Shown in pieces: positions 1,783 through 21,261 of a stretch of DNA of 64,000 nt. Source of the stretch: Polynucleobacter sp. AM-25C3. GTDB lineage: Bacteria; Pseudomonadota; Gammaproteobacteria; Burkholderiales; Burkholderiaceae. The position numbers and the translations under genes are program-made. The notes beneath the pieces are model-generated. The model saw only the letters and a list, made by a program, of their open reading frames with translations. It did not search any database and was not told the DNA's origin. The number at the start of each line of letters is the position of its first letter. Position 1 is the stretch's first letter. The DNA lies in assembly GCF_018882335.1 (NCBI RefSeq), contig NZ_JACVOS010000012.1, forward strand, positions 1 to 64,000. Direction: 5' to 3'.

Positions 1783-2709
1783 TTAATTCAATTCAGGTGC
1801 TATTTTTAGCACTTCAAAGGCCGCCTTGAGTCGTGTCTCATAGACTTGCTTCATCTGGGCCGCCTCTTCGGGTGACCACTCTCTGAAACCTGCCCCTTTA
1901 GCCATTCCTGTTTTTCCGGCATTTACAAGATCCATGACGCAGGGAGGTGGTGCGCTAATGTTAGAGAGAGATGGGTAAATGACTTCTGCTGCCAATGCCA
2001 TACCTTCCCAGCCGGAGATTTCTTTTTGAGTCATGGGGCCAACTGCGGCGTAGCGAAAGCCAAAGCTATAGCGCACCGCAGTATCTACGTCATCTGGCGA
2101 GGCAATACCTTCTTGCACTAAAGAAAGTGCTTCACGCATTAATGCATGCTGAATTCGGTTGGCTAAAAATCCTGGAATATCGCGCTTCACTAATACGGGT
2201 TTTTTACCATGGGCGCGATAAAGCGCGCAAATCTGCTCAGCTATCTGAGCATCAGAATTTTCACCTAAGACCACTTCCACTAAGGGAACGATGTGCGCAG
2301 GCATAAAGTAGTGGGTATTCAACATCCGATTACTTGTGGCTAATCCTTGAGCAATATCACTGATCGGAAAACCCGAGCTATTACTACCAATGGGAATGGT
2401 GGGTGGAATACGCTGATCAAGCTCGCTAAAGAGTGCTTGTTTGAGGTCTAGACGTTCAGAGATGGTTTCAATAACGAGATCAGTATTCTGCCAATCCGAC
2501 CAATCCGCTATCGTTCCGGCAAGTAGGGGAGTTCCGCCGTCTCGCCACGCAGCATTAATAGAATTAGCGCATGCTTCTACCTTAGAAAGGCTGCCCTGCG
2601 CCTTCTTGAGATCTCTACCTAGCAAAATCGTTTGAGCGCCAAAAGCCAAGAAGCCGGCGGCAATACCCACCCCCATGGTGCCTGTACCAATGACAACGAC
2701 TTTACTCAT
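1783..2709 (-). CDS. 3-hydroxyacyl-CoA dehydrogenase-like NAD-dependent enzyme (copy 1)
   Basis: 308 residues. The N-terminus carries a Rossmann fold with GTGTMG, the middle has SNSSGFPISDIA and NTHYFMPAHIVP, and the C-terminal helical domain has DIPGFLANRIQHAL. These are hallmarks of the short 3-hydroxyacyl-CoA dehydrogenase / L-gulonate 3-dehydrogenase / carnitine dehydrogenase group, which oxidise a beta-hydroxyl with NAD. The start at 2709 is chosen because GAGGG sits five bases upstream; a longer form from 2739 lacks this support. It is divergent from the enolase-family gene at 2828 and paralogous to the gene at 9099. The substrate is unknown; a hydroxy acid is inferred from context. Confidence 0.85.
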   Translation of the reverse strand: MSKVVVIGTGTMGVGIAAGFLAFGAQTILLGRDLKKAQGSLSKVEACANSINAAWRDGGTPLLAGTIADWSDWQNTDLVIETISERLDLKQALFSELDQRIPPTIPIGSNSSGFPISDIAQGLATSNRMLNTHYFMPAHIVPLVEVVLGENSDAQIAEQICALYRAHGKKPVLVKRDIPGFLANRIQHALMREALSLVQEGIASPDDVDTAVRYSFGFRYAAVGPMTQKEISGWEGMALAAEVIYPSLSNISAPPPCVMDLVNAGKTGMAKGAGFREWSPEEAAQMKQVYETRLKAAFEVLKIAPELN

Positions 2710-2827
2710 AGCGCCCTCAAATAATCGTAGATGAAGCATATTGATGATGGACTCATTATTCCTTATTTAGGAGCCGTCAGATAATGCGAATTATGGCTAC
2801 AATAATTTTTTGAATACAGGAGTTCTC

Positions 2828-3961
2828 ATGCCCATCATTGAGTCAGTATCAGTTGCTGCAGTAGCGGTGCCCCTGGATAAGGTCACATCCTTTTCCACGC
2901 GAACGGTTTCAGAGCGGCACTATTGCTTAGTCAAGGTACGTGGCAAGGATGGCAATGAGGGTATTGGTTTTTGTTATGTTGGCAGCGCGGGCGGCGATAT
3001 TGCCAAGATTGCGGTAGAGCAATTGCTAGCCCCAAAACTGATTGGTCAAAATAGCCATCGCAGCGAAGGCTTGTGGATGGAGATGTATAACGAATCCATT
3101 CTGCAGGGACGTGCTGGCGCTGTCATGCGTGGCATCTCCATCTTGGATACGGCGCTCTGGGATTTAAATGCCCATGCCGCAAAGTTGCCCCTTCACCATT
3201 ATTTAGGTTCGGTGGTGGACGACCGCGTTCCAGCCTATGCCAGCGGTGGCTACTACCTAGACGGAAAAACGCCTGCCAAGTTGGGTAAGGAGATGGAGTC
3301 TTACGTTAAACAGGGTTTTAAAGCCGTCAAAATGAAAGTAGGACGTCTTTCTCCAAGAGAAGAAGAGGCGCGGGTTAAAGCGGCTCGTAAGGCCGTAGGC
3401 GAGGATGTTCTGCTGACGCTCGATGCCAACAATGCTTGGCGCGATCTACCCACTGCCCTAGAGTACATTCGTCGCTTTGAAGCTTACAACCCATACTGGA
3501 TTGAGGAACCTTTTTCTCCGGATGCCATTGATCTGCATGCGGCTCTGGCTCGCCAGACCAAGATCAATGTGGCGACCGGTGAAATGGAAGCGGGGCGCTG
3601 GCGTTTTAGGGAGTTAATTGATGCGGGCGGTGCTGCTATCTTGCAATCGGATGCAGCAGTGTGTGGGGGTATTACTGAGTGGCGGCGTATTTCTGCTTAC
3701 GCGGATTTAAAAGGCGTGATTGTTTGCCCGCACTGGATGCATGACTTGCATGCGCCTTTGGTGGCTGCAACGCCGAATGCTCGTTTTGTTGAATTCTTCC
3801 TGGATGATCAGGTCTTGAACTTCCGTAGACTAATTAATAAGCAGCTTACCTTTAAGAATGGCGATTTGATTTTGCATCAAACGCCAGGCTTGGGTTTTGA
3901 GTTTGATGAGGCGGCGATTAAGAAATATGCTGGTAAAGCAGCATGGACAAAGATTGTCTAA
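2828..3961 (+). CDS. Mandelate racemase/muconate lactonizing enzyme family protein
   Basis: 377 residues, the usual size for the enolase superfamily. Visible features in order are a capping domain, KMKVG (KxK catalytic lysines), LDANNAW (metal Asp), WIEEP (metal Glu), VATGEME (metal Glu), LQSDAA (Asp) and CPHWMHDLH (His). The Lys plus His/Asp arrangement is that of the mandelate-racemase subgroup, which mostly dehydrates or epimerises acid sugars. ATG at 2828 is preceded by AGGAG with seven-base spacing. It lies between two hydroxyacid-type dehydrogenase loci and a TRAP importer, so I infer acid-sugar or hydroxyacid dehydration. The exact substrate cannot be read from sequence. Confidence 0.88.
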   Translation: MPIIESVSVAAVAVPLDKVTSFSTRTVSERHYCLVKVRGKDGNEGIGFCYVGSAGGDIAKIAVEQLLAPKLIGQNSHRSEGLWMEMYNESILQGRAGAVMRGISILDTALWDLNAHAAKLPLHHYLGSVVDDRVPAYASGGYYLDGKTPAKLGKEMESYVKQGFKAVKMKVGRLSPREEEARVKAARKAVGEDVLLTLDANNAWRDLPTALEYIRRFEAYNPYWIEEPFSPDAIDLHAALARQTKINVATGEMEAGRWRFRELIDAGGAAILQSDAAVCGGITEWRRISAYADLKGVIVCPHWMHDLHAPLVAATPNARFVEFFLDDQVLNFRRLINKQLTFKNGDLILHQTPGLGFEFDEAAIKKYAGKAAWTKIV

Positions 3962-3982
3962 TTTAATTCATTCATCAGTAAT

Positions 3983-4013
3983 AAAAAATCCCTCACATGA
4001 TGCGGGATTTTTT
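3983..4013 (+). terminator. Bidirectional intrinsic terminator between convergent genes
   Basis: AAAAAATCCC and GGGATTTTTT pair around an 11-base loop, giving a T-run on both strands. It sits 22 bases after the enolase-family stop and about 45 bases beyond the stop of the convergent TRAP permease gene, so it can end both transcripts. Confidence 0.85.
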
Positions 4014-4056
4014 ATGAGGATTAGAACCGGCCCCAGTCTTCAGTTATTGAAAAATC

Positions 4057-6069
4057 TCAGCTCGATCGTGGATTGAGTTTGAAGTGGGTAATCGATTGTG
4101 TGATCAGCACCAAGCCAAATCCAACGAACCCAATAATGTCTGCCTCGGTTGAGGGGTAAGCAAGCGCTACACCTGCGATCACCATGATGATGCGTTCAAA
4201 GGTTTTAGTCTTTTCAATGAACCAACCTTGGAGCCCCCCAGCCAAGCAGATGATGCCAACTACTGCCGTAAATGAAACCCAGGCTATCTGTGACCAGTCA
4301 GCTTGCTCTAGGGCGGTAGTGGAGCCCATAAGCAATAAGCTTACGCCCGACTTATCGAGTACGAACATGAATGGCACCAAGATAGCGGGGGCAACGTACT
4401 TCCAAGTCTGCAAAGTAGTCTTGTAGGGATTACCTTTGCAAATCGCTGCAGCCGCAAACGGTGAGAGCGCTGTTGGGGGCGAGACCTCAGATAGCACGGC
4501 GTAATAAAAGATGAACATGTGCGCTGCAAATTCTGGAACACCTAAATTGATCAGCGCAGGCGCGGCGATCACGGCGCAAATAATATAAGAGGCTGTGACT
4601 GGCACGGCAAGGCCTACTACCCAGACTACCAAGCCAGTAAAAATCGCGGTGAGCAAGAGTGAGCCACCCGCATATTGAATGACGATGGAGCTGAACTTCA
4701 GACCTAAGCCAGTGAGGGTAACGGTGCCAACAATCAATCCAGCGCCAGCGCAGGTGACGGCAATCGCCAGAACACCAGTAGAACCAGATGCCAGTGCTTT
4801 AGTGAGGTTCGAGTTATATAGGCCAGAGAAAATCTTCTCTTTACCTTGGAACCACTCCCAGGGAATGATGGCGGTATCACGACGCAACATGCTTGAAAGT
4901 GCCGAAACAACCGTTGCCCAGAATACTGACATGACTGGTGAAAAACCAAACATCATGAAGACCACAATTGAAATCAATGAGAAAAAGTGGAACCAATATT
5001 TTTTGGTTAACTTCCAAGCAGATTCCGCCGCTTGGAAGTGGATGTTCTTCATGCCGTATTTGCGAACATCAATTTCTACCATGACTAATAGACCAAGATA
5101 AAACAGAATGGTTGGAATGGTTGCCATCAGCAACACATCTAGGTAAGAGATTTTAAGGAAGTCCGCAATCAAGAATGCAGCTGCGCCAAGAACGGGAGGG
5201 GAGATGATTGCCCCTAGTCCACCCGCTGCCAACAAACCACCCGCTGCATTTTTCTCGTAACCTACTTTATCGAGCATGGGGGCGGCTACCGAGCCAACAG
5301 TGACGGTGGTAGCTACGCCAGAGCCTGATGGGCCACCGAGTAAGAATGATGAAAGAACAATCGTCCTACCAACACCGGAGGATTTGCCACCCATAGCGGC
5401 AAAAGAGAAATCAATAAAGAATTTACCTGCACCAGTGAACTGCAGGAAGGCGCCAAAGATAGTGAAGAGAATAATTAGGGTGGCAGATACATCCACCGCA
5501 GTACCGTAAATACCCTCAAGCGTCATATACATATAGCCGACTAGACGGTCAAGGTCATAGCCCTTGTGTGTCCATGGGGCTGGCAGGTAGTTGCCAAATA
5601 AGGCGTATAGCAAAAACAGGGAGGTAACGACAACTAAGACCATGCCATTGGTTCTTCGTACGCTCTCCAGAATGATGGCGATGAGAAAGACGCCAACCAT
5701 GACATCGGTTGAGTTCGGTGCGGTATTGCGATCAAATAGGTCGTCCCCACTACTTAAAATGTAATAGGCAACAGCTAGTGACCCCACGGCAAATAAAATA
5801 TCCCACCACATGAGGCGGTTCTTAAATCGGGCTGCAATCGGAAAGCTAAGGAAAACCAAAAATAGTACTAAGGCTACGTGGATAACACGCAGTTGCTGGG
5901 TGGGGACAATTGAGTAAGCGGCATACAAATGAAACAAGGACATGCCAACGGCAACCAAGGTGATGAACTTAGCCAAGAGACCTTTGTAGTCATTGGAGTC
6001 ACCTTCTTCTTGCTTAATGAAGGCGTCTAATTTTTCTTGTGTTTCATTATCAATTACAGCTTGCGTCAT
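4057..6069 (-). CDS. TRAP transporter permease, fused 4TM/12TM type
   Basis: 670 residues and hydrophobic throughout, with a short charged N-terminus. The length fits a fusion of the small (DctQ-like) and large (DctM-like) TRAP membrane subunits. Such fusions normally pair with TAXI-type binding proteins, and one lies directly upstream at 6166. TRAP systems are sodium- or proton-driven secondary importers of organic acids. Glycine-rich GGPSGSGVATT and SPPVLGAAAF segments match the large-subunit core. It is the last gene of a minus-strand operon that starts at 9013. Confidence 0.92.
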   Translation of the reverse strand: MTQAVIDNETQEKLDAFIKQEEGDSNDYKGLLAKFITLVAVGMSLFHLYAAYSIVPTQQLRVIHVALVLFLVFLSFPIAARFKNRLMWWDILFAVGSLAVAYYILSSGDDLFDRNTAPNSTDVMVGVFLIAIILESVRRTNGMVLVVVTSLFLLYALFGNYLPAPWTHKGYDLDRLVGYMYMTLEGIYGTAVDVSATLIILFTIFGAFLQFTGAGKFFIDFSFAAMGGKSSGVGRTIVLSSFLLGGPSGSGVATTVTVGSVAAPMLDKVGYEKNAAGGLLAAGGLGAIISPPVLGAAAFLIADFLKISYLDVLLMATIPTILFYLGLLVMVEIDVRKYGMKNIHFQAAESAWKLTKKYWFHFFSLISIVVFMMFGFSPVMSVFWATVVSALSSMLRRDTAIIPWEWFQGKEKIFSGLYNSNLTKALASGSTGVLAIAVTCAGAGLIVGTVTLTGLGLKFSSIVIQYAGGSLLLTAIFTGLVVWVVGLAVPVTASYIICAVIAAPALINLGVPEFAAHMFIFYYAVLSEVSPPTALSPFAAAAICKGNPYKTTLQTWKYVAPAILVPFMFVLDKSGVSLLLMGSTTALEQADWSQIAWVSFTAVVGIICLAGGLQGWFIEKTKTFERIIMVIAGVALAYPSTEADIIGFVGFGLVLITQSITHFKLNPRSS

Positions 6070-6165
6070 GTCTCTACCTATTTTTATATACCACTTTTTT
6101 ATTATTACAAATTCGGAGCTGCTAAAAAACTCAGGAGTGCTTTAAGGGCACTCCCGATATAGCCA

Positions 6166-7116
6166 TTAATTTACTTTGATATTTTTTTCTTTGAAATACT
6201 TTAGCGCGCCTGGATGGTATGCGATTGGTGTGGAGTTTTGTTTTTGATTCTCAAGAGTTACGTTGATATATTCCTTGTGGGTGCGAACTAACTCCAACTT
6301 ATTGTCAAATACTGCCTTCACAATCTTGTAAGCTTCATCGTCAGGCATATTGGCGTTCACTACAAGGATGTTGGCTACACCAGCCACTTTGTTGTCTTTG
6401 CCCATGCCACTGTAAGTTTCCTTTGGGATGTCGGCAGCAAAATACAGGTTGCCATACTTCTTATTCATGGCAGCTACTTCTGCAGAGTTATCCACCATCA
6501 CAATTTTCATGCCAGGACTATTAGCAAGATCAGTTACAGCCGCAGTTGGTAAACCGCCAACCCAGAAGAAGGCGTCGATTTTGCGATCTTTAACGGCGTT
6601 AACAGATTCCGCTACGCTTAGGCGCTCACGCTTCACGTCTTTGTCTTTATCAAGCCCTGCAGCCTCAAGCAAGCGAAAAGCCATTACTTCAGTTGCGCTA
6701 CCTGGGGCGCCAGTACTCACACGTTTACCCTTGAGATCCTTCATGGACTTAATGCCAGTAGAGTCCACTGTGACCACGTGCATGAGGTTTGGATACAGAA
6801 CCAAGAGTGTGCGTAAATCCACTTTCTTGTTCGCGAATTTGCCCTCACCATCTTTAGCATCTTTAGCTGCGTCGGCCATAGAGAAGCCAACGTAGGGCTT
6901 GCCTGTGCCGATGAGGTTGAGGTTATCTACTGAGCCCCCAGTCACTTCGGCAGTAGCTGACATTCCGGGTACTTTGCTAGAGAGTACTGAGGCAAGTCCA
7001 CCACCCATTGGGTAGTAAACGCCACCAGTACCGCCGGTTGCGATGGAAATGTTTTGTGCTTGTGCGGCACCGAACAGCATAGTGAGTGATACGGCAATAA
7101 CTTTAATTAGCTTCAT
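6166..7116 (-). CDS. TAXI-family TRAP transporter solute-binding protein
   Basis: 316 residues. The signal peptide has a basic MKLIK start, a hydrophobic core and AQA cleavage after about residue 20. The mature protein opens with ISIATGGTGGVYYPMGG, the signature of the TAXI subfamily. It is periplasmic and delivers ligand to the fused TRAP permease encoded 96 bases downstream. The DapA-like gene lies 28 bases upstream, so uptake and metabolism are probably co-transcribed. Ligands of TAXI proteins are poorly known (glutamate or dicarboxylates in some cases), so none is assigned. Confidence 0.93.
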   Translation of the reverse strand: MKLIKVIAVSLTMLFGAAQAQNISIATGGTGGVYYPMGGGLASVLSSKVPGMSATAEVTGGSVDNLNLIGTGKPYVGFSMADAAKDAKDGEGKFANKKVDLRTLLVLYPNLMHVVTVDSTGIKSMKDLKGKRVSTGAPGSATEVMAFRLLEAAGLDKDKDVKRERLSVAESVNAVKDRKIDAFFWVGGLPTAAVTDLANSPGMKIVMVDNSAEVAAMNKKYGNLYFAADIPKETYSGMGKDNKVAGVANILVVNANMPDDEAYKIVKAVFDNKLELVRTHKEYINVTLENQKQNSTPIAYHPGALKYFKEKNIKVN

Positions 7117-7144
7117 TTTTGTCTCCTGTTATGCGTTTGTTTAA

Positions 7145-8071
7145 TTAAAGACCTGGCATGCTGAAATTCATTTTTTCTAATTCGCTCAGCAATTTCGCTT
7201 GCTGGTCTGCGCTCAGTTGCATGAGTGGTGGGCGTACTCGTAGCCACTCAGAATCTTTACTGTAATGCGCAACTGCAGTTTTCATACCGGCAATCATTTG
7301 ATATTGAGCAAAAATTGAGCGTACTTGATCTAAGGATTCTTGGCGTTGATCTGCGTCAGATTCCCTCCAATGGGCGGCTAATTCAGCGATAGCCCTAGGG
7401 TTTACGTTAGCAGTTGCTGAGATACAACCAACTCCGCCTGCACGTAAGGCCCGCATTAAGAACACTTCGCTACCAGCGTAAACGCGAAAACCAGATGGCG
7501 CCAATAATTTAATGACAGATTCCGTATATGACCAATCTCCAGAGCTATCCTTCATACCAACAACAGTCTTTGGATATTCTTTAGCAAGGCGCTCTAGCAA
7601 TGAAAGACTCAGGTTAATTTTGGTAACGGGTGGAATGTTGTAAATATAAACTTGCAATGCTGCGTCACCCACCTTTTGAATCACTTCTGAGAAGTAGGCA
7701 AAGAGGCCATCATCTGTGACGTCTTTGTAATAGAAGGGCGGAAGCATCAACACGCCAGCACATTGATGTTGAACCGCATGGCGCGTCATATTAACAGTGG
7801 CATCAATCGACGTAGCACCCGTGCCAGGCATCATGTGTGCTGGGTTTAAGCCGCCTTCAATCAAGGACGTGAGCGTCCCCATTTTTTGCGGGGCAGACAT
7901 CGAGTTTGCTTCTGAGTTTGTTCCGAAGATGGCTTGGCCAACACCATTGGCTTCGAGCCACTGACATTGCTTTAGTAATTTTTGAGCATCTGGGCTGCCA
8001 TCTTCTTTAAATGGAGTTAATACCGGTGAGAGCACTGCTGGCAGTGTGGACGGGTGTAGGGAAATGGTCAT
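7145..8071 (-). CDS. Dihydrodipicolinate synthase-family (class I) lyase/aldolase
   Basis: 308 residues, a DapA/N-acetylneuraminate-lyase TIM barrel. The Schiff-base lysine is in VGMKDSSGD (K174) and the activating tyrosine in YIYNIPP (Y144). The substrate-carboxylate loop is GTNSE rather than the GTTGE typical of lysine-pathway DapA, which argues for a catabolic 2-keto-acid aldolase or dehydratase rather than DapA itself. It sits 12 bases after the hydroxyacid dehydrogenase gene and upstream of the TAXI-TRAP genes. Cleavage or dehydration of a keto-deoxy acid made by the enolase-family enzyme is inferred. Confidence 0.9.
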   Translation of the reverse strand: MTISLHPSTLPAVLSPVLTPFKEDGSPDAQKLLKQCQWLEANGVGQAIFGTNSEANSMSAPQKMGTLTSLIEGGLNPAHMMPGTGATSIDATVNMTRHAVQHQCAGVLMLPPFYYKDVTDDGLFAYFSEVIQKVGDAALQVYIYNIPPVTKINLSLSLLERLAKEYPKTVVGMKDSSGDWSYTESVIKLLAPSGFRVYAGSEVFLMRALRAGGVGCISATANVNPRAIAELAAHWRESDADQRQESLDQVRSIFAQYQMIAGMKTAVAHYSKDSEWLRVRPPLMQLSADQQAKLLSELEKMNFSMPGL

Positions 8072-8083
8072 GCTTGCTCCGGT

Positions 8084-9013
8084 TTAATTTTTAATTTCGG
8101 TCAGAAGTGACTGTTGATTGTAAAAAGCTTCTAAATTATCTATTGCTAAGTTTGTCATCAATTGACGCGTTTCCGAAGTTGCGCTTCCAATATGCGGTGT
8201 TAATAAGACATTATCAATATTTAAGAAATCGGCGTTCGGATTTGGTTCATTTTCAAATACATCGAGTGCCGCACCAGCGATCTTTTTTTGTTGCAGCGCA
8301 ACTAAAAGTGCCGCTTCATCTACTACGCTACCGCGGGCAATATTAATGAGATAGCCCTTGGGTCCTAAAGCATCCAATACTTCAGCGTTGATCATCTTGT
8401 CTGTCTCTGGGCTGGCGGGGCAGGCAAGAAAAAGAATGTCACATTCCTTTGCCAATGCCTTGATATCGGGGTAATAGTCGTAAGGAACATCCTTACGCGC
8501 GGGCCCGGTATAGGCAATTTTGACTTTGAAAGGTTCTAGGCGCTTAGCAAGATCTTGGCCAATGCGACCCATTCCTGCGATACCGACTTGTTTGCCAGCG
8601 AGAGTCGTGGTGACTGTAAACAAACCCTTGGACCAAGCTGAACTTTTAACAAATTCGTGCGCCTGCGGAATGCGACGCAATAAACCAAATAGCATACCAA
8701 TTGCTAGTTCACAAACTGCGTCATTGAGAACGCCTGGAGTATTACTGGCCTTGATCCCCTTGGCCTTGAGGTAGTCCAATGGGAGGTTGTCGTAACCTAC
8801 GCCACAAGTTGCGACCATCTTCACCATGGGGAGCTTCTCAAGTAATTGGATGGGTAGTTGGGTATTTGAGCGAATCAAAATACTCTCGTAAGAACCGGGC
8901 GGTAGATTGGTGTTGAGGTCGGCAAGGCGAACTGGAGTAATGCGCTGGTCAATGACCGTTTGCATTACCTCAGGAAATTGGCCGACCTGCAGTACCGAAT
9001 TGACTGGGATCAT
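8084..9013 (-). CDS. D-isomer-specific 2-hydroxyacid dehydrogenase
   Basis: 309 residues with the standard two-domain fold. NAD(P) binding is shown by GMGRIG (about 148-152). The catalytic residues are R227 in NIARGS, E256 in the FENEP segment and H274 in LTPHIGS. Family members reduce glyoxylate, hydroxypyruvate or other 2-keto acids. It is the first gene of a minus-strand operon with the DapA-like enzyme and TAXI-TRAP importer, and is divergent from the dehydrogenase gene at 9099, so the 85-base gap between them probably holds both promoters. Glyoxylate or hydroxypyruvate reductase activity is plausible but not proven. Confidence 0.92.
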   Translation of the reverse strand: MIPVNSVLQVGQFPEVMQTVIDQRITPVRLADLNTNLPPGSYESILIRSNTQLPIQLLEKLPMVKMVATCGVGYDNLPLDYLKAKGIKASNTPGVLNDAVCELAIGMLFGLLRRIPQAHEFVKSSAWSKGLFTVTTTLAGKQVGIAGMGRIGQDLAKRLEPFKVKIAYTGPARKDVPYDYYPDIKALAKECDILFLACPASPETDKMINAEVLDALGPKGYLINIARGSVVDEAALLVALQQKKIAGAALDVFENEPNPNADFLNIDNVLLTPHIGSATSETRQLMTNLAIDNLEAFYNQQSLLTEIKN

Positions 9014-9098
9014 GTCTCACTTACTTTTTTATTGGAATAATGAAATCATTGTAAGAGGATTTGTAATCCTTATCTTGCCACCGAAGGAGAAGTTAAAA

Positions 9099-10040
9099 AT
9101 GTTATTTACCCCTGCCGAAACAAAAGTGGTGATCGTTGGTGGCGGCACTATGGGCGCTGATGTAGCAGCTGTTTGTGCACGTGGAGGTTGCGCAGTGCAG
9201 GTGCTTGAACTTACGACAGAGCGCCGCGCACTCTTGCCAGATTACTTTGCCAGCACCATGATCGACCTAGGTTATGAAAATCGCCTACATTTACTGACTA
9301 CCGCCGGTTCATTAGAGGAGGTGGATTGGCCGGAAGTAGATCTGGTAATTGAGTGCGTACCTGAGCGCTTAGACATTAAACAAGAATTGTTTGCCAAGCT
9401 GGAGCAATACGCAAAACCTGAAGCGGTCCTGGCCAGTAACAGCACCAGCTTTCCGATTAGTGATATTGCGCGTGGTCTGAAAACACCTGCCCGTATGATC
9501 GGCCTACATTTTTTCATGCCGGCGCATTTAGTGCCTTGTGTAGAAGTGGTCTACGGTGCGAAGACTTCCCCTATGGTTGGTGAAAGCCTTTCTCGACTAA
9601 TGACTGCTTGTGGCATGGTGCCAGTGACCGTGAAAAAAGATTTACCGGGTTTTTTGGCTAATCGTTTGCAACATGCTCTATCGCGCGAAGCTTTTGCTAT
9701 GGTCGATGCGGGCATTGCTAGTTTGGAAGATATTGATAAGGCCGTGCGTTTTGGTTTTGGCTTTCGCTACATTGCGGCTGGACCTGCCATGCAAAGAGAT
9801 CATGCTGGGCTAGATGTGCATGGTGCTGGGGGTGCGACGATTTATCCCACCCTCAATAATTCCCCCGATATTGCGAAATGCTTAAGTGATCGGATTGCTA
9901 GTGGCAAGTTGGGCATGAAAACAGGCGAAGGTTTTTATTCTTGGACTGCGGAGACGATGAAGGCGGAGCGTGAACGCTATCAGGATGCCCTGCGTGCAGG
10001 GCTGAAGATTATCCAAAAAGATATTCCAGAGATTAAATAA
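9099..10040 (+). CDS. 3-hydroxyacyl-CoA dehydrogenase-like NAD-dependent enzyme (copy 2)
   Basis: 313 residues. GGGTMG lies at 14-19, followed by SNSTSFPISDIARGL, GLHFFMPAHLVPCVE and LPGFLANRLQHAL. It is a clear paralogue of the gene at 1783, sharing the same motif variants. The ATG at 9099 has AAGGAG eight bases upstream; a longer frame from 8907 would overlap the divergent gene and is rejected. It belongs to the beta-hydroxyacid dehydrogenase group that includes L-gulonate 3-dehydrogenase and carnitine dehydrogenase, as well as short 3-hydroxyacyl-CoA dehydrogenases. Two copies flanking one transporter operon suggest oxidation of related substrates or successive steps. Confidence 0.88.
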   Translation: MLFTPAETKVVIVGGGTMGADVAAVCARGGCAVQVLELTTERRALLPDYFASTMIDLGYENRLHLLTTAGSLEEVDWPEVDLVIECVPERLDIKQELFAKLEQYAKPEAVLASNSTSFPISDIARGLKTPARMIGLHFFMPAHLVPCVEVVYGAKTSPMVGESLSRLMTACGMVPVTVKKDLPGFLANRLQHALSREAFAMVDAGIASLEDIDKAVRFGFGFRYIAAGPAMQRDHAGLDVHGAGGATIYPTLNNSPDIAKCLSDRIASGKLGMKTGEGFYSWTAETMKAERERYQDALRAGLKIIQKDIPEIK

Positions 10041-10078
10041 ATCTGGGGTCAGAGCGCCCGATGTTTTATCCTGAGGGC

Positions 10079-10759
10079 ATGAAAAAAATTATTCGTATTT
10101 GGGATCTGCCAATTCGCTTGTTTCACTGGCTCTTGGTGATCTGCATTGTTGCTAGCTTTATTACTGTCAATATTGGTGGCAATGCAATGGAGTGGCATGC
10201 ACGGGTAGGTTACTGTGTTCTGACTTTAATTGTTTTCAGAATATGTTGGGGTGTCATTGGATCTCACCACGCACGCTTCGTGAATTTTGTCCCCAGTCCT
10301 AAAGGCTTGCTCGCCTACCTATCTGGAAAAACCAAGGCAGGTCTTGGCCACAATCCCTTGGGCGCCCTATCGGTGGTTGGGCTACTTTTTTCGGTCGGTC
10401 TTCAAGCGGTGACGGGCCTTTTTGCAAATGACGACATCATGTTTGAGGGCCCCTTTGCAAAATATGTTTCGAATAGCACTGTGGAGCTCTTGACCTCTAT
10501 TCACTATTTCAATGAAAAGGTTCTGATTATTCTAATTGCGCTCCATTTATGCGCGATCTTGTATTACCAAAAGTTCAAGGGTGAGAATTTAGTCAAGCCA
10601 ATGCTGCTAGGCGATAAAGAAATTGACCCAAGCGAGGAGGCAAAGTATTTACCATCTGACTTGGGTCATGCCTCCAAAGATGGAGGTCTGCAACGCGGCT
10701 TTGCTTTATTTCTGCTTAGCCTGATTGCGGTGATTCTGGGTTACTTCATTACTAAGTAG
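10079..10759 (+). CDS. Cytochrome b561-type membrane protein
   Basis: 226 residues from ATG 10079. A start at 10061 adds six residues; I prefer 10079 because MKKIIRIWDLPIRLFHW is the usual family beginning. The bacterial cytochrome b561 (Ni-Fe hydrogenase b-subunit-like) domain shows RLFHW, MEWHARVGY and SIHYFNEKV, with histidines that would ligate b-haem in a four-helix membrane bundle, and a C-terminal membrane helix. It is convergent with a cytochrome c' gene whose stop codon abuts this one. The likely role is electron transfer between quinol and that periplasmic cytochrome. Confidence 0.88.
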   Translation: MKKIIRIWDLPIRLFHWLLVICIVASFITVNIGGNAMEWHARVGYCVLTLIVFRICWGVIGSHHARFVNFVPSPKGLLAYLSGKTKAGLGHNPLGALSVVGLLFSVGLQAVTGLFANDDIMFEGPFAKYVSNSTVELLTSIHYFNEKVLIILIALHLCAILYYQKFKGENLVKPMLLGDKEIDPSEEAKYLPSDLGHASKDGGLQRGFALFLLSLIAVILGYFITK

Positions 10760-11209
10760 TTATTTTTTCTTGAAGTCATCATGGCAACCTTTACAGGTAG
10801 CACCGGCTGCACCAAAAGCCTTTTTAATTGCTTCTTGATCTCCTGACTGCGCGGCAGTATTGAGGTTTGCAACAGCGAGCTGCATTTTCTCGGAAGCAGA
10901 TTTGAATTTGGCGTTATCAGACCATACCTCTGGTAGCGCATTCCCACCTTCAGTGCCTGTGCCAAAGGCTTGCCATGGCAAGGTAGAAATCATTGCAACA
11001 ACTGCCGCATTTTTAGCGACATCATCCTTGTTGTATGGAGCTTCACCTTTTACGACTGCGCTAATTTTGCCAAAAGAGTTAGCCATTACTGTGAATGCGC
11101 TCTGGCGATATTTAATTGCGTCTTCTGGCTTTTTAAATTGCGCATAGGCAATCCCACTAACCAATAAGGTTGGTGCAAGGGTAGCCAAAACAAGATGTTT
11201 GAGTTTCAT
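10760..11209 (-). CDS. Cytochrome c' (class II c-type cytochrome)
   Basis: 149 residues starting at MKLKH, with GGAG six bases upstream. The in-frame start at 11230 lacks this support. A signal peptide ends near AYA. The single haem motif CKGCH is at the extreme C-terminus, which is typical of four-helix cytochrome c'. It is periplasmic. It lies tail to tail with the cytochrome b561 gene (stops at 10759 and 10760), a pairing seen in many proteobacteria. Roles proposed for this family are electron transfer and NO binding; neither can be decided here. Confidence 0.93.
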   Translation of the reverse strand: MKLKHLVLATLAPTLLVSGIAYAQFKKPEDAIKYRQSAFTVMANSFGKISAVVKGEAPYNKDDVAKNAAVVAMISTLPWQAFGTGTEGGNALPEVWSDNAKFKSASEKMQLAVANLNTAAQSGDQEAIKKAFGAAGATCKGCHDDFKKK

Positions 11210-11301
11210 AAGGAGCTCCAATAATTTCAATAGATTAGGGGGGTGACGCTATGTTTGCTCAGCATACTCTCGAACTACTTTTTTTGCCGACGGGAATTTG
11301 T

Positions 11302-13520: not shown

Positions 13521-13537
13521 GTCTTGCAGTAAGACTT
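13519..13537. terminator. Weak hairpin between convergent crcB and Bug-protein genes
   Basis: AAGTCTT and AAGACTT pair around a five-base loop and span the 15-base gap between the crcB stop (13520) and the opposing stop (13536). T-runs are short, so termination efficiency is doubtful. Confidence 0.4.
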
Positions 13538-14513
13538 ATTCGGGCTTGATATTTCCGGCCCTCACTACGGCACTCCATTTAGCAGCTTCAGATTTAATTA
13601 AGGCTGCAAAGTCTGCGGGGGTACCGCCACCAATTTCATTTCCTTGGGAGAGCATGAGTTCTCTCAGTTGTGGATCTTTAAGCGCTTCATTAGCAGCTTT
13701 ATTTAATGTATCAATAATGGGTTTCGGTGTGCCGGCAGGCGCAATGAATCCCTGCCAATTAAGCACTTCAACTTTAGGATATCCAAGCTCTGCAAAGCTA
13801 GGCACATTTGGAAAGAGGGGCGATCTCTTTTTACTTGTGATGGCGATCGGGCGTAGCTTGTCTGCTCTGATGCTGGGCACTGCCGAATACATTTGGTCAA
13901 ACATCATGTCGACATTACCACCCATCAAGTCTGTCAAGCCTGCAGATCCACTCTTGTAGGGCACATGAATCATTTGAATGCCGGCATTTTGCATAAAGAG
14001 TTCTGCTGAGAGTTGATGGCTGCCACCAATGCCTCCTGATGAGAAGGTCAGGGTGCCCGGTTTTGCTTTGGCTGCAGTAACAATATCTTGAATAGTCTTG
14101 TATGGCGAATTTGGATTAACCACTAAAACTAGGGGTCCTTTTTCTATCAAGATAATTGGGATTAGATCGGTTTCAGGATCGTAGCGCAGGTTGCCAAATA
14201 GCGTTTTATTAACCGCCATGGGAGCAAAGTTGCCCATACCAATCGTGTAGCCATCTGGCGTGGATCTTGCTACAAACTCAGTGCCAATATTTCCGCCGGC
14301 ACCCGGTTTGTTGTCAATGACAAAGGGTTGCTTCAGGATCACACTCATTTTCTGGGCCAACTGCCTACTACGAGAATCTGCACTCCCGCCTGCGCCATAA
14401 GGCACAACCACAGTAATGGGTTTATTGGGGTAATTGGTTTGGGCTTGTGGCGTAGCAACAGTTAGCAATGCCGCACAGAGTGCAGATATCTTTAAAAGTT
14501 TCATCATTGTCAT
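13536..14513 (-). CDS. Bug-family tripartite tricarboxylate transporter binding protein (1)
   Basis: 325 residues. The signal peptide runs MKLLKIS to about PQAQ, and the mature protein begins YPNKPITVVVPYGAGGSADSRSR, the standard Bug/TctC opening. Bug proteins are periplasmic ligand receptors for TTT transporters and are greatly expanded in Burkholderiales. No TctA or TctB membrane genes are nearby, which is common for this family. Its ATG overlaps the upstream chromate-transporter stop by four bases (ATGA), so it is translationally coupled to that operon. The ligand is unknown. Confidence 0.93.
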   Translation of the reverse strand: MTMMKLLKISALCAALLTVATPQAQTNYPNKPITVVVPYGAGGSADSRSRQLAQKMSVILKQPFVIDNKPGAGGNIGTEFVARSTPDGYTIGMGNFAPMAVNKTLFGNLRYDPETDLIPIILIEKGPLVLVVNPNSPYKTIQDIVTAAKAKPGTLTFSSGGIGGSHQLSAELFMQNAGIQMIHVPYKSGSAGLTDLMGGNVDMMFDQMYSAVPSIRADKLRPIAITSKKRSPLFPNVPSFAELGYPKVEVLNWQGFIAPAGTPKPIIDTLNKAANEALKDPQLRELMLSQGNEIGGGTPADFAALIKSEAAKWSAVVRAGNIKPE

Positions 14514-15031: not shown

Positions 15032-15615
15032 AGTTTGCGCGCCTTTTTTTGTGCCAAGATCCACGCAAGCGGAGAAGCAATGAGAACCACCCAGCCAAGA
15101 CCGAGCTGGTAATAACTGGCGGCAATTACAGTTACAGCTACCACTAGTAACATCGCAGGAAAGCGCAACTCATCACGCAACATTTTGATTCCAGTGGAGG
15201 CAATTAAGCCCACCCCAACAGCAGAAATACCCCGCAGAATGCCTTGGACGGATTCCAGATAGCTGAAATGTGTATAGAGAAGGGCTAGCAGCATCACAAT
15301 GCAAATGGGTCCAAGCGTTAAGCCAAGTACGGCTGCTAATGCGCCCTTTGCACCGGCAAAGCGGGAGCCAATACAAACTGCCAGATTAACAATGTTGGGA
15401 CCCGGAACAATTTGACATATTCCAAGAATGGCGCTGAAGTCTTCAGAGCTTAATACTTTATCTCGCTCAACCAGAGTCCGGCGCGCCCAAGGTAAAACCC
15501 CGCCAAAACCAGACATCCCGATTTTGCTGAAGCTGATAAATAATTCTGCGGGGGTAAGTGTCTTCAAGTGAATTAAGGTTCGAATGGATGGGGAATTGGC
15601 TTTTGATCGAGCCAT
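15028..15615 (-). CDS. Chromate transporter-like protein, first half (short CHR)
   Basis: 195 residues with FSKIGMSGFGG followed by ICQIVPGPNIVN, both CHR-domain signatures, and about six hydrophobic segments. It overlaps the next CHR gene by four bases. The start at 15615 makes a 43-base overlap with the upstream hydroxyacid dehydrogenase gene. An in-frame TTG at 15567, just after that gene's stop, is an alternative giving about 179 residues and keeping the whole CHR domain. Likely partner of the downstream half in a heteromeric membrane transporter. Confidence 0.87.
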   Translation of the reverse strand: MARSKANSPSIRTLIHLKTLTPAELFISFSKIGMSGFGGVLPWARRTLVERDKVLSSEDFSAILGICQIVPGPNIVNLAVCIGSRFAGAKGALAAVLGLTLGPICIVMLLALLYTHFSYLESVQGILRGISAVGVGLIASTGIKMLRDELRFPAMLLVVAVTVIAASYYQLGLGWVVLIASPLAWILAQKKARKL

Positions 15616-16547
15616 GCTTCTAGCGTTTGAGTGATGCCTTGCGAGAAGGTTTCAAAAATAGGCTCTGCAATAAACCCGAGATGAGGTGTCACTAGTAGGT
15701 TGGGTGTATAGCGAAGTGGATCATCCTTTGGCAGCGGTTCGATGTCAAAGACATCTACTGCGGCTTGCGCGGGACAACCCTTTTTAAGCGCGGCACCTAA
15801 ATCGGGCATATTGATTAATGCTGAACGCGAAGTATTTACCAAAATGGAATCCGGGCGCATTAAGGCAAGTTGATCGGCGCTAATGATGCCCTTAGTGCCA
15901 GGGCCGGCTACCAGATGCATCGTGATTACTTTTGATGTACTCAGTAATTCATCTAGGCTAACGGATGTTGCATTTTCAGCAGCAGCACGTTCCGGTGTCA
16001 TGCGGGGACTCCAGGTCACGACTTCCATGCCAAACGCATGGCCAACTCTCGCTACTCGACTACCGATTGCACCTAAGCCCATCACACCAAGCCGTTGGCC
16101 AGAAAGCATTGGTAGTAGAGATAGTTCATCGCGCCAGCCACCAGTAGAAATTAACTTGTTCTGCTCAATCAGGTGTTTAGAGGCGCCTAAGATTAAGGCC
16201 CAGGTTAACTCGGCGGTGGTCTCTGTTGATGGGCCACCGGGCGTACATGCCATGGGAATGTTTCTGGAGGCCAAAGAGGTGGCCTCAAGTGTGCCATTCC
16301 GTTTACCGGTAAACATGAGGAACTTGAGCTTTGGGAGTCTTGCGATCATGGCCTCATTAAAGGGTGATCGATCGCGCACGATAGCAATCGCATCAGCGTC
16401 TTTTACGGCCTCATATAGCGCCTCATCTCGCAAGGGCTCATGATGAATTGTGAGGTTTGCACTCTGGTCGAGCTTATCCCAGTTTGAGAAGCGACGCAGG
16501 GCGCGTTCGTAATCCCCTAGGATGACAATGTTAGGTAAATTGGTCAT
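15573..16547 (-). CDS. D-2-hydroxyacid dehydrogenase family protein
   Basis: 324 residues. The NAD site is GLGAIGSR (158-165); the catalytic triad is R241 (NTSRSAL), E270 (DVFDIEP) and H289 (VTPHLGF). It falls in the branch often labelled D-2-hydroxyacid or phosphoglycerate dehydrogenase-like, without a C-terminal ACT domain, so it is not a full SerA. It heads a minus-strand operon with the two short CHR genes and a Bug binding protein, all overlapping, which suggests one metabolic purpose involving a 2-hydroxy or 2-keto acid. Substrate unknown. Confidence 0.9.
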   Translation of the reverse strand: MTNLPNIVILGDYERALRRFSNWDKLDQSANLTIHHEPLRDEALYEAVKDADAIAIVRDRSPFNEAMIARLPKLKFLMFTGKRNGTLEATSLASRNIPMACTPGGPSTETTAELTWALILGASKHLIEQNKLISTGGWRDELSLLPMLSGQRLGVMGLGAIGSRVARVGHAFGMEVVTWSPRMTPERAAAENATSVSLDELLSTSKVITMHLVAGPGTKGIISADQLALMRPDSILVNTSRSALINMPDLGAALKKGCPAQAAVDVFDIEPLPKDDPLRYTPNLLVTPHLGFIAEPIFETFSQGITQTLEAWLDQKPIPHPFEP

Positions 16548-17793: not shown

Positions 17794-18792
17794 ATGCTGA
17801 TTTTATTAAAAAAGGCTAAAAAAGCCCTGTTATTCAGCGTATTTTTGATGGTGGCTAGCTCTATTGCCATTGCCCAAACCGCCGGAGTAGGCGCTTGGCC
17901 TACCCAAAAACCAATCCGCCTTATTGCTGTTTTCCCACCGGGAGGCTCCGTTGATCAGGTTGCCCGTGTATTGGCCCCGGCTTTGCAGTCGGAATTAAAG
18001 CAAAACGTGATTGTGGAGAACGTGGGCGGCGCCTCTGGAGTGATTGGTACTGCGGCCATGACAAGATCTGATCCAGATGGCTATACCTTTGCGGTGGTAT
18101 TTGATACCCATGGCGTGAATCCTTCCCTTAAAGATAAGCTTCCCTACGACACCATTAAAGACATCGCCCCTGTCATTCTGATTGGTACATCACCGATGGT
18201 CTTGGTTGCGAGTAAGAAATCAGGCATCACTAGCTTTAAGCAGTTGGTCGATCTTTCTAAAACAGGCAAGCAATTTAGTTACGGCTCTATCGGAGTCGGA
18301 AGCTTAGGACACTTAGCAATGGCCCGTCTCGCAAAACAAGCGGGTTTTGATTGGAATCACGTTCCTTATCGTGGTGGTGGTCCTATGATGCAAGATGCCT
18401 TGGGTAGTCAAGTTGAGTTGGCAATAGGCTCAGAGTTTTTAGTAAAACCCCATGTTGATAGCGGCGGCGTGATTCCACTGGTGATTACCACGGCCAAAAG
18501 ATCCCCATCCTTGCCAAATGTACCAACGATTTCTGAGAGTGGGTTCCCGGGCTTTAGTGCGCCAGCTTGGTGGGCGGTATTGGCTCCCGGTAAAACACCT
18601 CCGGCAGTGGTCGATGCGATGAACAAGGCGTTGAATAAAGCGTTGAAAACCTCAGCAGTTGCTGAAAAGTTCAAGGCACAAGGCATTCAAATTGTTGGGG
18701 GTACCCCTGAAGCTGCTCAAGAGTTTATTGGTAAGCAAATTGGAATTTGGGGTAAGTTTGTTATCGAAAACAACATCAAAGAGACGCAGTAA
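17794..18792 (+). CDS. Bug-family tripartite tricarboxylate transporter binding protein (2)
   Basis: 332 residues. GAAGGAG lies upstream of the chosen ATG with about seven-base spacing. A signal peptide ends near AIAQT, and the mature start WPTQKPIRLIAVFPPGGSVD is the Bug/TctC signature. It is a periplasmic receptor for a carboxylate-type ligand. A carboxymuconolactone decarboxylase-family gene follows after 9 bases, so the ligand may be an aromatic-derived or related acid, which is inference. No TctAB genes are in the window. Confidence 0.92.
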   Translation: MLILLKKAKKALLFSVFLMVASSIAIAQTAGVGAWPTQKPIRLIAVFPPGGSVDQVARVLAPALQSELKQNVIVENVGGASGVIGTAAMTRSDPDGYTFAVVFDTHGVNPSLKDKLPYDTIKDIAPVILIGTSPMVLVASKKSGITSFKQLVDLSKTGKQFSYGSIGVGSLGHLAMARLAKQAGFDWNHVPYRGGGPMMQDALGSQVELAIGSEFLVKPHVDSGGVIPLVITTAKRSPSLPNVPTISESGFPGFSAPAWWAVLAPGKTPPAVVDAMNKALNKALKTSAVAEKFKAQGIQIVGGTPEAAQEFIGKQIGIWGKFVIENNIKETQ

Positions 18793-19356: not shown

Positions 19357-20547
19357 ATGAGCCAAGATAGCGTCATTCATTGGGAAGAGAATAGCCATCC
19401 GCATACGGCACTCTGGCATTCTGAGAATGGCATAGTGCCACACAAAAAAGTGGTGCCTGCAGATGACGCGATGACGGCTGACGATGCCTATCATTTGGCA
19501 TGTGAAGGTACAGCAATCCTTTGGAAGGGTGATTTTCAGAATGCTCGACAACTATTGCAGGCTTTGGTTCGTAGGATAGATAAGCCTTCGAAAAAATCCA
19601 AGCGCGCAGGAAAGAGGGTTGATAAATCGGTTGATACTGCCGTCAAGAAAACCGCAAAAGATATTTTCAATCGGCATCGCCTCATTCAATCTCAACGAGC
19701 AAGAATACTGGGCATGCTGTTGATCCAATGCAATACTGATCACACGATTTCATTACGTCGCGCACCAGACGTCACTCAGGCCTGCCTAGAAGCCTATGGC
19801 AGCGTTAGCGAGCCCTATGTCATTTCATTGCGAGAGCTATTAGGTGTGATTAGTGCGCATGAATGGCGCAAGAATGGATTACCTATTCTGGCTGATGGCG
19901 ATGGGGAACCCATTTTTGTTCATCCGCATTACGGTGTTTTCTCACCTGTTCGTGGTGAATATATTGAGCTGGTATGCAATGCACCATTACCCAAAGCGTT
20001 GGATGCGGAATCTATTGCATTTGATATTGGCGTTGGCACTGGGGTGCTCTCTATTATTTTGGCAATGCGTGATGTACAAAACATTGTTGCCACCGATCAA
20101 GATGACCGTGCCCTCGCTTGCGCTAAAGAAAATATTGCGTTTTTGAAGCTAGGCTCGCAAATAGAGATTGTGAAGGCCAATTTATTTCCAAAAGGAAAGG
20201 CTTCGCTGATCCTATGTAATCCACCTTGGGTACCAGCAAGACCTAGCTCAACCTTAGAGCACGCTGTCTATGATCCTGATAGCCAAATGCTCAAAGGATT
20301 TTTAGCTGGATTGAAAGATCACCTATTACCTCAGGGAGAGGGGTGGTTAATTCTGTCTGATTTAGCCGAACATCTCGAGCTGAGAACTCGACAAGAGTTG
20401 CTCTCGTGGATTGAGGATGCAGGTTTGATTGTTTTAGGCCGTATTGATACCAAGCCCAAACATCCTAAAGCATTTGATGATTCTGATTTACTGTATTTTG
20501 CAAGAGCAATTGAAGTCACTTCACTTTGGCGATTAAAAGTAATTTAG
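19357..20547 (+). CDS. Class I SAM-dependent methyltransferase with NPPW motif
   Basis: 396 residues. The SAM-binding motif I is AFDIGVGTG (222-229), the acidic post-II residue is in IVATDQDD, and the catalytic loop is NPPW (288-291). NPPY/W places it with enzymes that methylate amide or exocyclic nitrogen (PrmC, RlmF/RlmG, adenine methyltransferases). The N-terminal 200 residues are a separate domain containing a Lys-rich stretch at 77-101 that may bind nucleic acid. A specific target cannot be named. Starts 3 bases after the CMD gene. Confidence 0.85.
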   Translation: MSQDSVIHWEENSHPHTALWHSENGIVPHKKVVPADDAMTADDAYHLACEGTAILWKGDFQNARQLLQALVRRIDKPSKKSKRAGKRVDKSVDTAVKKTAKDIFNRHRLIQSQRARILGMLLIQCNTDHTISLRRAPDVTQACLEAYGSVSEPYVISLRELLGVISAHEWRKNGLPILADGDGEPIFVHPHYGVFSPVRGEYIELVCNAPLPKALDAESIAFDIGVGTGVLSIILAMRDVQNIVATDQDDRALACAKENIAFLKLGSQIEIVKANLFPKGKASLILCNPPWVPARPSSTLEHAVYDPDSQMLKGFLAGLKDHLLPQGEGWLILSDLAEHLELRTRQELLSWIEDAGLIVLGRIDTKPKHPKAFDDSDLLYFARAIEVTSLWRLKVI

Positions 20548-20678
20548 AACTTTTGATAATTTTTCCAGGATATAGATATCCCTAATAAATGCAGCCCCTT
20601 AGCCTAAAGGGTTGTTAATGCAAGTTACTAACCCTAAAATTACTGACAATATTTTCATAAAGTTTCAGTAATTAAGAG

Positions 20679-21260
20679 TTGAGTTTGCTAAAAATTTTTA
20701 AGTTAATTCCCATCCAATCTAGGTGGATTATTTCCCTAGTGCTTGGTATGCATTTATTCGTTCTATTTAGCTCCTTTAACGAACAATCAATTTCATCCAG
20801 CAAATTTCCTGCTGATATTTTAAGTATTGCTATTGTGAGAAATGCCTCAGTACATAATTCAATAAATTCTGATCAAAAATCTGATTTCATTCAAACTGCC
20901 AGGATCGGTATTAGCCATGATCCTTCCCCGGCAAGAGCGCCTGGGAGTACCGGCATCGATCTATCCCTGCCAAGATCCCTACCAAATTTGAGTGAAAGAA
21001 ATATCCATTCCAATCCAAAGCCTCCATACCCCCTTGCCAGCAAGCGACTTGGAGAGCAAGGCGCTGTCAAGCTTAGCTTGTGTATTAATCGCCTTGGCAC
21101 TGTTGAAATAGTCTCCATGGTGAATAGTTCCGGCTATGAGAAATTAGATAGATCAGCTTTGGAAACAGTAAGAACTTGGAAATTTTCCGCGCTAGAGATC
21201 GAGGATCAATCCCTATCTCACTGCTACCTTCTCCCCATTCACTTTAGGTTGGAGGCTTGA
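20679..21260 (+). CDS. tonB: TonB-like energy transducer
   Basis: 193 residues from TTG 20679. A later ATG at 20748 would cut the only membrane helix (about residues 16-31), so the TTG is preferred although no good Shine-Dalgarno sequence is seen. The C-terminal 85 residues form a TonB C-terminal domain: NPKPPYPLASKRLGEQGAV, then a YEKLDRSALETVRTWKF segment. The linker is shorter and less proline-rich than in classic TonB. It is followed by hemP and a TonB-dependent receptor, so it probably energises that receptor. No exbB/exbD is adjacent. Confidence 0.85.
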   Translation: MSLLKIFKLIPIQSRWIISLVLGMHLFVLFSSFNEQSISSSKFPADILSIAIVRNASVHNSINSDQKSDFIQTARIGISHDPSPARAPGSTGIDLSLPRSLPNLSERNIHSNPKPPYPLASKRLGEQGAVKLSLCINRLGTVEIVSMVNSSGYEKLDRSALETVRTWKFSALEIEDQSLSHCYLLPIHFRLEA

Positions 21261-21261
21261 T

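Follow-up and report, generated by a model that had tools for sequence, protein, structure and literature searches.

A conserved Polynucleobacter gene module with a TAXI-TRAP importer and a predicted role in sugar-acid or hydroxyacid catabolism

A stretch of 64,000 nucleotides from Polynucleobacter sp. AM-25C3 (contig NZ_JACVOS010000012.1, positions 1 to 64,000, hereafter the window) carries at 1783-10040 a cluster of seven genes that encodes a TAXI-TRAP importer together with predicted enzymes of acid catabolism, among them a DapA-like lyase with a GTNSE loop. An eighth gene, for a dehydratase of the IlvD/Edd type, lies apart from the cluster and appears to belong with it. It is very probable that these genes constitute a conserved catabolic module for a sugar acid or hydroxyacid. 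The genes are the following (genomes and loci are referred to below by our own G and L labels).

1783-2739, minus strand: HCD1, an NAD(P)-dependent dehydrogenase of the 3-hydroxyacyl-CoA dehydrogenase (3HCDH) family, optional copy (PF02737/PF00725)
2810-3961 (open reading frame, ORF; start probably ATG 2828), plus strand: MR, predicted acid-sugar dehydratase of the mandelate racemase (MR) subgroup of the enolase superfamily (PF02746/PF13378)
4057-6069, minus strand: fused TRAP permease (QM) (TIGR02123, 531.7 bits, cut-off 320.65)
6166-7116, minus strand: TAXI solute receptor (TIGR02122, 300.4 bits, cut-off 84.35)
7145-8071, minus strand: GTNSE-type DapA-fold Schiff-base lyase, probable 2-keto-3-deoxy-acid aldolase (PF00701, dihydrodipicolinate synthase (DHDPS) family)
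8084-9013, minus strand: D-2-hydroxyacid dehydrogenase, glyoxylate/hydroxypyruvate reductase group (PF02826, 2-Hacid_dh)
9099-10040 (corrected from an ORF start at 8907), plus strand: HCD2, second 3HCDH-family dehydrogenase (PF02737/PF00725)
24170-25921, plus strand: IlvD/Edd [Fe-S] sugar-acid dehydratase, putative displaced partner of the module (PRK06131, 886.4 bits, cut-off 539)

All seven cluster genes named by an earlier sequence-only reading were recovered at its coordinates and in the families it had assigned. Its two dehydrogenase paralogues, HCD1 and HCD2, proved 43% identical and its GTNSE loop was located at residues 50-54 of the lyase; the inventory was nevertheless incomplete as the IlvD/Edd partner had been overlooked. 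MR probably starts at ATG 2828, giving a protein that begins MPIIESV, and not at 2810, while HCD2 probably starts at ATG 9099, preceded by GGAG. Over six compared loci, the ratio of nonsynonymous to synonymous substitution (dN/dS) spanned 0.007-0.12 for the seven genes where computable and was lowest in MR and HCD2 (0.011-0.021 in the latter), values that are rough because dS was mostly saturated and of which HCD1 contributed just two. These low ratios, together with conservation inside the genus and largely outside it, indicate that the gene set is not a product of chance. The host assembly is 2.1 Mb and the alignment rows nearest to MR were from Polynucleobacter.

Members of the MR subgroup are recognised by a KxK motif, Asp/Glu/Glu metal ligands and a His-Asp dyad. 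The corresponding residues of MR (K174xK176, D205, E232, E258, D281 and H308) were invariant in 38/38 alignment rows, and by motif MR is a member of the MR-subgroup acid-sugar dehydratases, for which dehydration is predicted. None of the 17 NCBIfam models listed for MR was reached at its cut-off; with NF047820, the L-talarate/galactarate dehydratase model, MR had 232.6 bits (cut-off 500). The closest solved relative by sequence was 2og9, the same Polaromonas protein as in the L-glucarate complex 3cb3, and the highest identity among the listed chains was 34% (3ozm, 3h12 and 3op2, a Bordetella protein). Fold comparison of the MR structure model (pLDDT 92.6), like that of the lyase, ranked families among the listed chains; its top three matches were L-talarate/galactarate dehydratase (Z 48.2-48.4, root-mean-square deviation (rmsd) 2.4-2.6, 369-370 residues aligned). 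The Bordetella structure 3ozm, which holds m-xylarate and L-lyxarate, gave Z 45.8, rmsd 2.2 and 364 aligned residues, and other MR members fell within 1-3 Z units of the top folds. The fold and identity matches may be read as a hint only toward aldarate dehydratases.

The lyase has the residues of a DapA-fold class I lyase, with the Schiff-base Lys174, Tyr144, Thr51 and Glu54 kept in 22/22 rows. The GTNSE loop was found in 21/22 and 16/16 rows of two alignments. At the aligned position of Arg138, the residue used by DHDPS for its second substrate, the rows had Val (21/22) or Gln (1/22). The score against TIGR00674 (DHDPS) was 129.8 bits at a cut-off of 206.15, and another DapA homologue is encoded elsewhere in the host genome (G000:C51). 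On account of the changed Arg138 position, the low score and the separate homologue, identity with the DHDPS of the lysine pathway was rejected. The KdgD models were likewise not reached (TIGR03249, 51.6 bits, cut-off 373.95; PRK03620, 58.4 bits, cut-off 278). The structure model of the lyase (pLDDT 93.3) had as its nearest fold 3b4u, titled dihydrodipicolinate synthase (Z 38.7, rmsd 1.7, 286 residues aligned). We consider it likely that the GTNSE enzyme is an aldolase.

With receptor and fused permease both above cut-off, the import system is of the TAXI-TRAP type. The binding tyrosine of the receptor, Tyr34, is kept. Met80 occupies the position of the key glutamate-binding Gln, with Met in 29/30 rows and a gap in the remaining one, and Asn110 stands where Glu aligns (Tt Glu111, taken as VcGluP E125), with Asn in all 29/30 rows that have a residue. 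In VcGluP that Gln is reported to dominate glutamate binding (PMC11574862). Glutamate was rejected as the ligand since two polar contacts of the glutamate receptors are replaced, and from the same replacements the ligand is probably one without an amino group. Reported TAXI ligands include glutamate, together with glutamine and pyroglutamate, as well as 2-oxoglutarate/2-hydroxyglutarate and phthalate (PMC11574862, PMC12344293). TAXI-TRAP receptors are poorly characterised, and the genomic tie of one TAXI group to specific catabolic enzymes means that its ligand can be tested for directly.

For the D-2-hydroxyacid dehydrogenase the best NCBIfam model was glyoxylate reductase, with a score below cut-off, and its PDB neighbours include hydroxyphenylpyruvate and glyoxylate/hydroxypyruvate reductases. 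A second D-2-hydroxyacid dehydrogenase is encoded at 15573-16547 on the minus strand; it is 24% identical to that of the cluster and its best NCBIfam model was phosphoglycerate dehydrogenase, below cut-off.

The chemistry of the 3HCDH family is mostly oxidation beside a carboxyl function. HCD1 and HCD2 both belong to the family, scoring over the PF02737 and PF00725 cut-offs; none of the named 3HCDH equivalogs (3-hydroxyacyl-CoA, carnitine and FHMPC dehydrogenases) was reached by either, the best scores being 189.5 for HCD1 and 216.9 for HCD2 of 500. HCD1 is absent or reduced in many genus loci and had a near full-length match in 5/20 fetched regions (L055-L058 and L060). Strict co-inheritance of the pair was rejected as the alphaproteobacterial HCDa and HCDb fall in separate long-branch clades. 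CoA-thioester chemistry was also rejected, there being no thiolase, CoA ligase or hydratase among the identified recurring clusters, a negative that was obtained with no dedicated query and with several small clusters unannotated. Locus L129 seems to carry CoA-related genes upstream, according to a by-eye reading of translation starts. The role of the 3HCDH proteins is the weakest part of the interpretation of the module.

Within the genus, the GTNSE lyase was intact in 32 of 40 genomes (host included), broken in 2 and missing from 6. Twenty regions picked by the lyase were fetched, and the six-gene core of MR, permease, TAXI receptor, lyase, 2-hydroxyacid dehydrogenase and HCD2 was together in 16/20. 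Two of the regions (L070 and L071) are decayed clusters in whose genomes nearly all cluster genes are broken or missing; HCD2 of G264 is intact, and the neighbouring M23 gene is still full-length (one match). In the last two regions (L065, 9442-10368; L066, 9491-10417) the lyase stands alone beside the M23 gene, and no MR match was obtained in either genome. The GTNSE lyase is missing from G127 and G206, which keep MR, the TAXI receptor, HCD2 and a second 3HCDH gene within 11 kb. In a related Polynucleobacter variant (L122, 8794-18871) a DapA-like gene with GIMGE (by eye) and RraA-like, SDR and Ldh_2 genes replace the GTNSE lyase.

The IlvD/Edd gene sits between those for 2-hydroxyacid dehydrogenase and HCD2 in genus regions L067-L069 and in L126 and L157. 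In the window this position lacks it and the gene is found at 24170-25921 instead. Its product is 73-85% identical to those inside Burkholderiaceae clusters with MR and DapA and about 62% identical to those of L067-L069; it falls in the PRK06131 subfamily and stays below cut-off for L-arabinonate dehydratase (PRK13016, 682.2 bits, cut-off 882). Sixteen genus genomes were searched for it. An intact gene (at least 63% identity) was present in 6/6 genomes with MR and lyase both intact (G000, G188, G200, G253, G224 and G050) and in 0/10 of those without both; among the latter, G264, with its decayed cluster, had an interrupted copy (59%), and 9 genomes had none, showing just a 31-35% kind. The chance figure for this profile is 1/8008, a value that ignores kinship. 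From identity and distribution we take the gene at 24170-25921 to be the missing, displaced partner of the module.

Conservation beyond the genus was examined in the best 80 of 585 relatives of MR, a sample biased to close relatives that comprised 29 genus-type loci (by record naming and MR identity of at least 77%) and 51 others, some of the loci being short contigs; neighbours were counted within 11 kb. The sequence-only reading was to fall if its genes were scattered singly in relatives, and it came through in good part, with the GTNSE lyase near MR in 21/29 genus-type and 24/51 other loci. The 51 further contained IlvD/Edd in 25, GntR in 18, 2-hydroxyacid dehydrogenase in 16, SMP-30 lactonase in 9, uronate-dehydrogenase-like and galactarate-dehydratase-like genes in 8 each and any 3HCDH gene in 6. 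Where each flank extended for 6 kb or more (35 loci), 21 had the lyase and 22 IlvD/Edd. Where the lyase was present (24 loci), IlvD/Edd accompanied it in 21 and 2-hydroxyacid dehydrogenase in 13. Anchoring on the lyase gave a similar picture, the 20 best non-genus family loci (L032-L051) having MR in 13, IlvD/Edd in 14, at least one of them in 18 and neither in 2. Single-linkage clustering of our own ORF calls over 105 loci gave, for the 76 outside the genus type, MR in 63, lyase in 46 and IlvD/Edd in 42.

Lyase-bearing loci came from Alpha-, Beta- and Gammaproteobacteria and one Verrucomicrobia metagenome-assembled genome (L124), in which MR, DapA, IlvD and 2-hydroxyacid dehydrogenase genes follow in a row. 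Gene order varies: in Roseivivax it is 2-hydroxyacid dehydrogenase, MR, DapA, two 3HCDH genes, GntR, tripartite tricarboxylate transporter (TTT), IlvD, and in Paraburkholderia lactonase, galactarate-dehydratase-like, two major facilitator superfamily (MFS) genes, MR, DapA, 2-hydroxyacid dehydrogenase, IlvD, GntR, uronate-dehydrogenase-like. The last gene matched uronate dehydrogenase in the PDB (E 2e-53 to 2e-58), the lactonase was annotated SMP-30 and the galactarate-dehydratase-like gene reached 362.9 bits with TIGR03248 (cut-off 730.85). A Loktanella cluster carries a LarA-type gene; a LarA homologue is reported to epimerise D-arabinarate (PMC11770544), which is a suggestive parallel only. 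Two more distant MR relatives were looked at. One, in a haloarchaeon, had no annotated DapA-family gene; the other (37%), on a Thalassospira marina plasmid (L080, 8920-17511), lies near a TAXI receptor and TRAP permease and was also without an annotated DapA-family gene. Read by eye, L129 (8298-14961) has MR with SMP-30-like lactonase, GntR-like, Ldh_2-like and TctC-like genes, after which comes a pair like two halves of an aconitase-type hydratase.

Importers are exchanged across these clusters between TAXI-TRAP, TTT, MFS and ABC types. Recognised importers of the 51 non-genus loci were TTT in 10, MFS in 8 and TAXI in 6, with ABC importers not counted. On the MR tree (78 rows) importer type changed 13 times against 36.9 with shuffled labels, where the label for no or another importer also covers short-contig loci; exchange has thus taken place, but clade by clade. 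The TAXI-TRAP importer named by the sequence-only reading is not a fixed part of the set, its place being taken by other types elsewhere, and HCD1 is often missing.

Dehydration, aldol cleavage and oxidoreduction of an imported acid had also been proposed for the locus; this fits the families and the retained catalytic residues, while each reaction, the reaction order and the substrate class are ones we infer. By family and linkage, a dehydratase and a predicted 2-keto-3-deoxy-acid lyase are encoded together, as in a non-phosphorylative sugar-acid pathway. Our best reading, which we hold at about even odds, is that the module takes up a polyhydroxylated carboxylic acid and degrades it non-phosphorylatively, with two unrelated dehydratases converging on one aldolase. 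TAXI-TRAP would import the acid, and MR (by Mg-dependent enolisation) and IlvD/Edd (with its Fe-S cluster) would each remove water from a different epimer and arrive at the same 2-keto-3-deoxy acid. Schiff-base cleavage of this acid by the GTNSE lyase would then release pyruvate and a 2-oxo or semialdehyde acid, which would be glyoxylate if the substrate is a C5 diacid and tartronate semialdehyde if it is a C6 diacid. Glyoxylate may be reduced by the D-2-hydroxyacid dehydrogenase as it stands, the other fragment once isomerised to hydroxypyruvate, and HCD1 and HCD2 might oxidise or reduce the 3-hydroxyl and so feed in further epimers. The Paraburkholderia uronate-dehydrogenase-like, lactonase and galactarate-dehydratase-like genes point to aldaric acids, and an aldaric substrate (a diacid of five or six carbons, or a group of its epimers) is given a chance slightly short of even. 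In the host genome a malate synthase domain was matched, tartronate semialdehyde reductase scored over cut-off and PF13660 matched a gene of glycerate 2-kinase type; no glyoxylate carboligase reached cut-off there, and the best GlcD match was full-length at 533 bits (cut-off 568). The host could use either glyoxylate or tartronate semialdehyde. Homologues of hyi type and of glxR lie side by side in L166 (1776-3515; G000:C1).

Several observations weigh against this reading. Specificity in the enolase superfamily is not predictable from fold, and the uncharacterised Streptomyces member 2ovl ties the top folds of MR (Z 48.2, rmsd 1.7, 356 residues aligned), with 3,6-anhydro-L-galactonate cycloisomerase at Z 47.3 and mandelate racemase at Z 46.9. 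The flank of 27/51 non-genus MR loci has no GTNSE lyase, and this includes 14 of the 35 loci whose flanks each reach 6 kb or more, which suggests that MR may act upstream of more than one route. In L137 and L143, MR, IlvD, 3HCDH and TAXI-TRAP genes occur with no lyase identified, L143 being a short contig that ends inside IlvD; the lyase occurs without MR in G142 and G012. Uronate-dehydrogenase-like genes were found in 0/29 genus-type loci, and the alphaproteobacterial 3HCDH pair is not orthologous to HCD1 and HCD2. The isomerase-type gene of the host genome, which adjoins that for tartronate semialdehyde reductase, passes the cut-offs of both hydroxypyruvate isomerase and 2-oxo-tetronate isomerase. 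The Bosea cluster, where a sugar ABC importer accompanies MR along with an HpaI/GarL-like aldolase and a semialdehyde dehydrogenase, also suits an aldonate.

Were the substrate such a monoacid, MR and IlvD would convert a pentonate or 6-deoxyhexonate to a 2-keto-3-deoxy-aldonate, and the lyase would yield pyruvate and glycolaldehyde or lactaldehyde that end as glycolate or lactate. We regard this as rather unlikely. The IlvD partner resembles L-arabinonate dehydratase but remains below its cut-off (682/882); genes of the FMN 2-hydroxyacid dehydrogenase family in 9 loci, Ldh_2 or LarA genes in others and a host GlcD match slightly below cut-off count in favour of the route. The aldehyde-dehydrogenase query from Bosea argues otherwise: it matched 1/80 MR-anchored loci (L109) and only its own locus in the comparison of fetched regions, indicating few aldehyde-oxidising partners, a point limited by a PaoABC aldehyde-oxidase-type gene near MR in Roseivivax and a relative in L040. 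The route is close to the Herbaspirillum pentose routes (PMC6336799), but the importer counts given above speak against it and the uronate-dehydrogenase-like genes fit diacids better.

Less probable still, at well under one chance in five, is that the GTNSE enzyme works in the manner of KdgD or L-KDA dehydratase, by dehydration with or without decarboxylation, and delivers alpha-ketoglutarate semialdehyde to a Weimberg-type or oxidative uronate route. The DapA fold hosts both reaction types, and the hexuronate oxidative route uses an MR member, uronate dehydrogenase and lactonase, so that fold and upstream enzymes agree; the KdgD models nevertheless scored far below cut-off, aldehyde dehydrogenase matched in one MR-anchored locus, and a 2-oxoacid reductase is near in 13/24 non-genus lyase loci. 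It is very improbable that MR, lyase and dehydrogenases belong to unconnected pathways and owe their proximity to nothing but genome streamlining. The genes are on both strands, HCD1 is dispensable and the lyase stands alone in two genomes, but MR, GTNSE lyase and IlvD cluster recurrently in differing orders and in more than one phylum, and the joint decay in two genomes and the matched presence of the displaced IlvD point the same way.

Breakdown of a polyhydroxylated acid by converging dehydratases can be extended to a bolder proposal, which we offer as speculative: an undescribed, widespread aldaric-acid route in which a Mg-dependent enolase-family enzyme and an Fe-S IlvD/Edd enzyme feed a new GTNSE-type aldolase, the 3HCDH pair oxidises and reduces the substrate so as to epimerise C3, and one importer is freely swapped for another. 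If true, it would add a sugar acid to the substrates of TAXI-TRAP systems for the first time, as far as we know.

Some other features of the window were recorded. A cytochrome b561-family gene begins 20 bases past HCD2 and converges with a cytochrome c' gene (10061-11230); the two often adjoin the module in the genus, sometimes with a gene of about 400 codons (MFS-like by eye) between them and HCD2, and are probably unrelated to it. Two Bug/TctC-like solute receptor genes (13536-14513, minus strand; 17794-18792, plus strand) gave 25-30% matches to a TctC query, and no TctA match was found beside either in the searched part of the window (1-24000). At 20001-24000 the G+C content drops to 0.414, against about 0.46-0.49 elsewhere in the window; the low stretch surrounds a gene for a TonB-dependent receptor (21517-23580) that lies shortly upstream of the IlvD/Edd gene.

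Literature searches found no paper describing this gene set. One studied Polynucleobacter strain is reported to be without hexose kinases and a phosphotransferase system (PMC3308952). Polynucleobacter is an abundant freshwater group, and a non-phosphorylative route would illustrate a way for it to use carbon derived from sugars. Among known systems, the oxidative hexuronate/aldarate route consists of uronate dehydrogenase, galactarolactone cycloisomerase or glucarate/galactarate dehydratase, and KdgD. It shares with the module an MR-superfamily enzyme, a DapA-fold enzyme and aldaric acids (PMC5114784), and clusters related to the module carry uronate-dehydrogenase-like and lactonase genes. The module differs in adding IlvD/Edd, the 3HCDH pair, a 2-hydroxyacid dehydrogenase and TAXI-TRAP, with a lyase below KdgD and an MR below the model cut-offs. 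Fold and catalytic machinery of MR are common to L-talarate/galactarate dehydratase (2pp0, 2pp1, 2pp3) and Bordetella 3ozm, but identity is 30-34% and the NF047820 cut-off is missed. The non-phosphorylative pentose routes I-III of Herbaspirillum huttiense have UxaA/GarD-family and IlvD/Edd dehydratases in common with these clusters, and FAH-family genes with some relatives of the cluster (PMC6336799); in the module an enolase-family dehydratase is instead paired with the GTNSE lyase, and no aldose dehydrogenase was seen in the cluster. Finally, the glutamate receptors VcGluP and TtGluBP share receptor family and binding Tyr with the TAXI receptor described here, in which their Gln is replaced by Met and the nearby Glu by Asn (PMC11574862).

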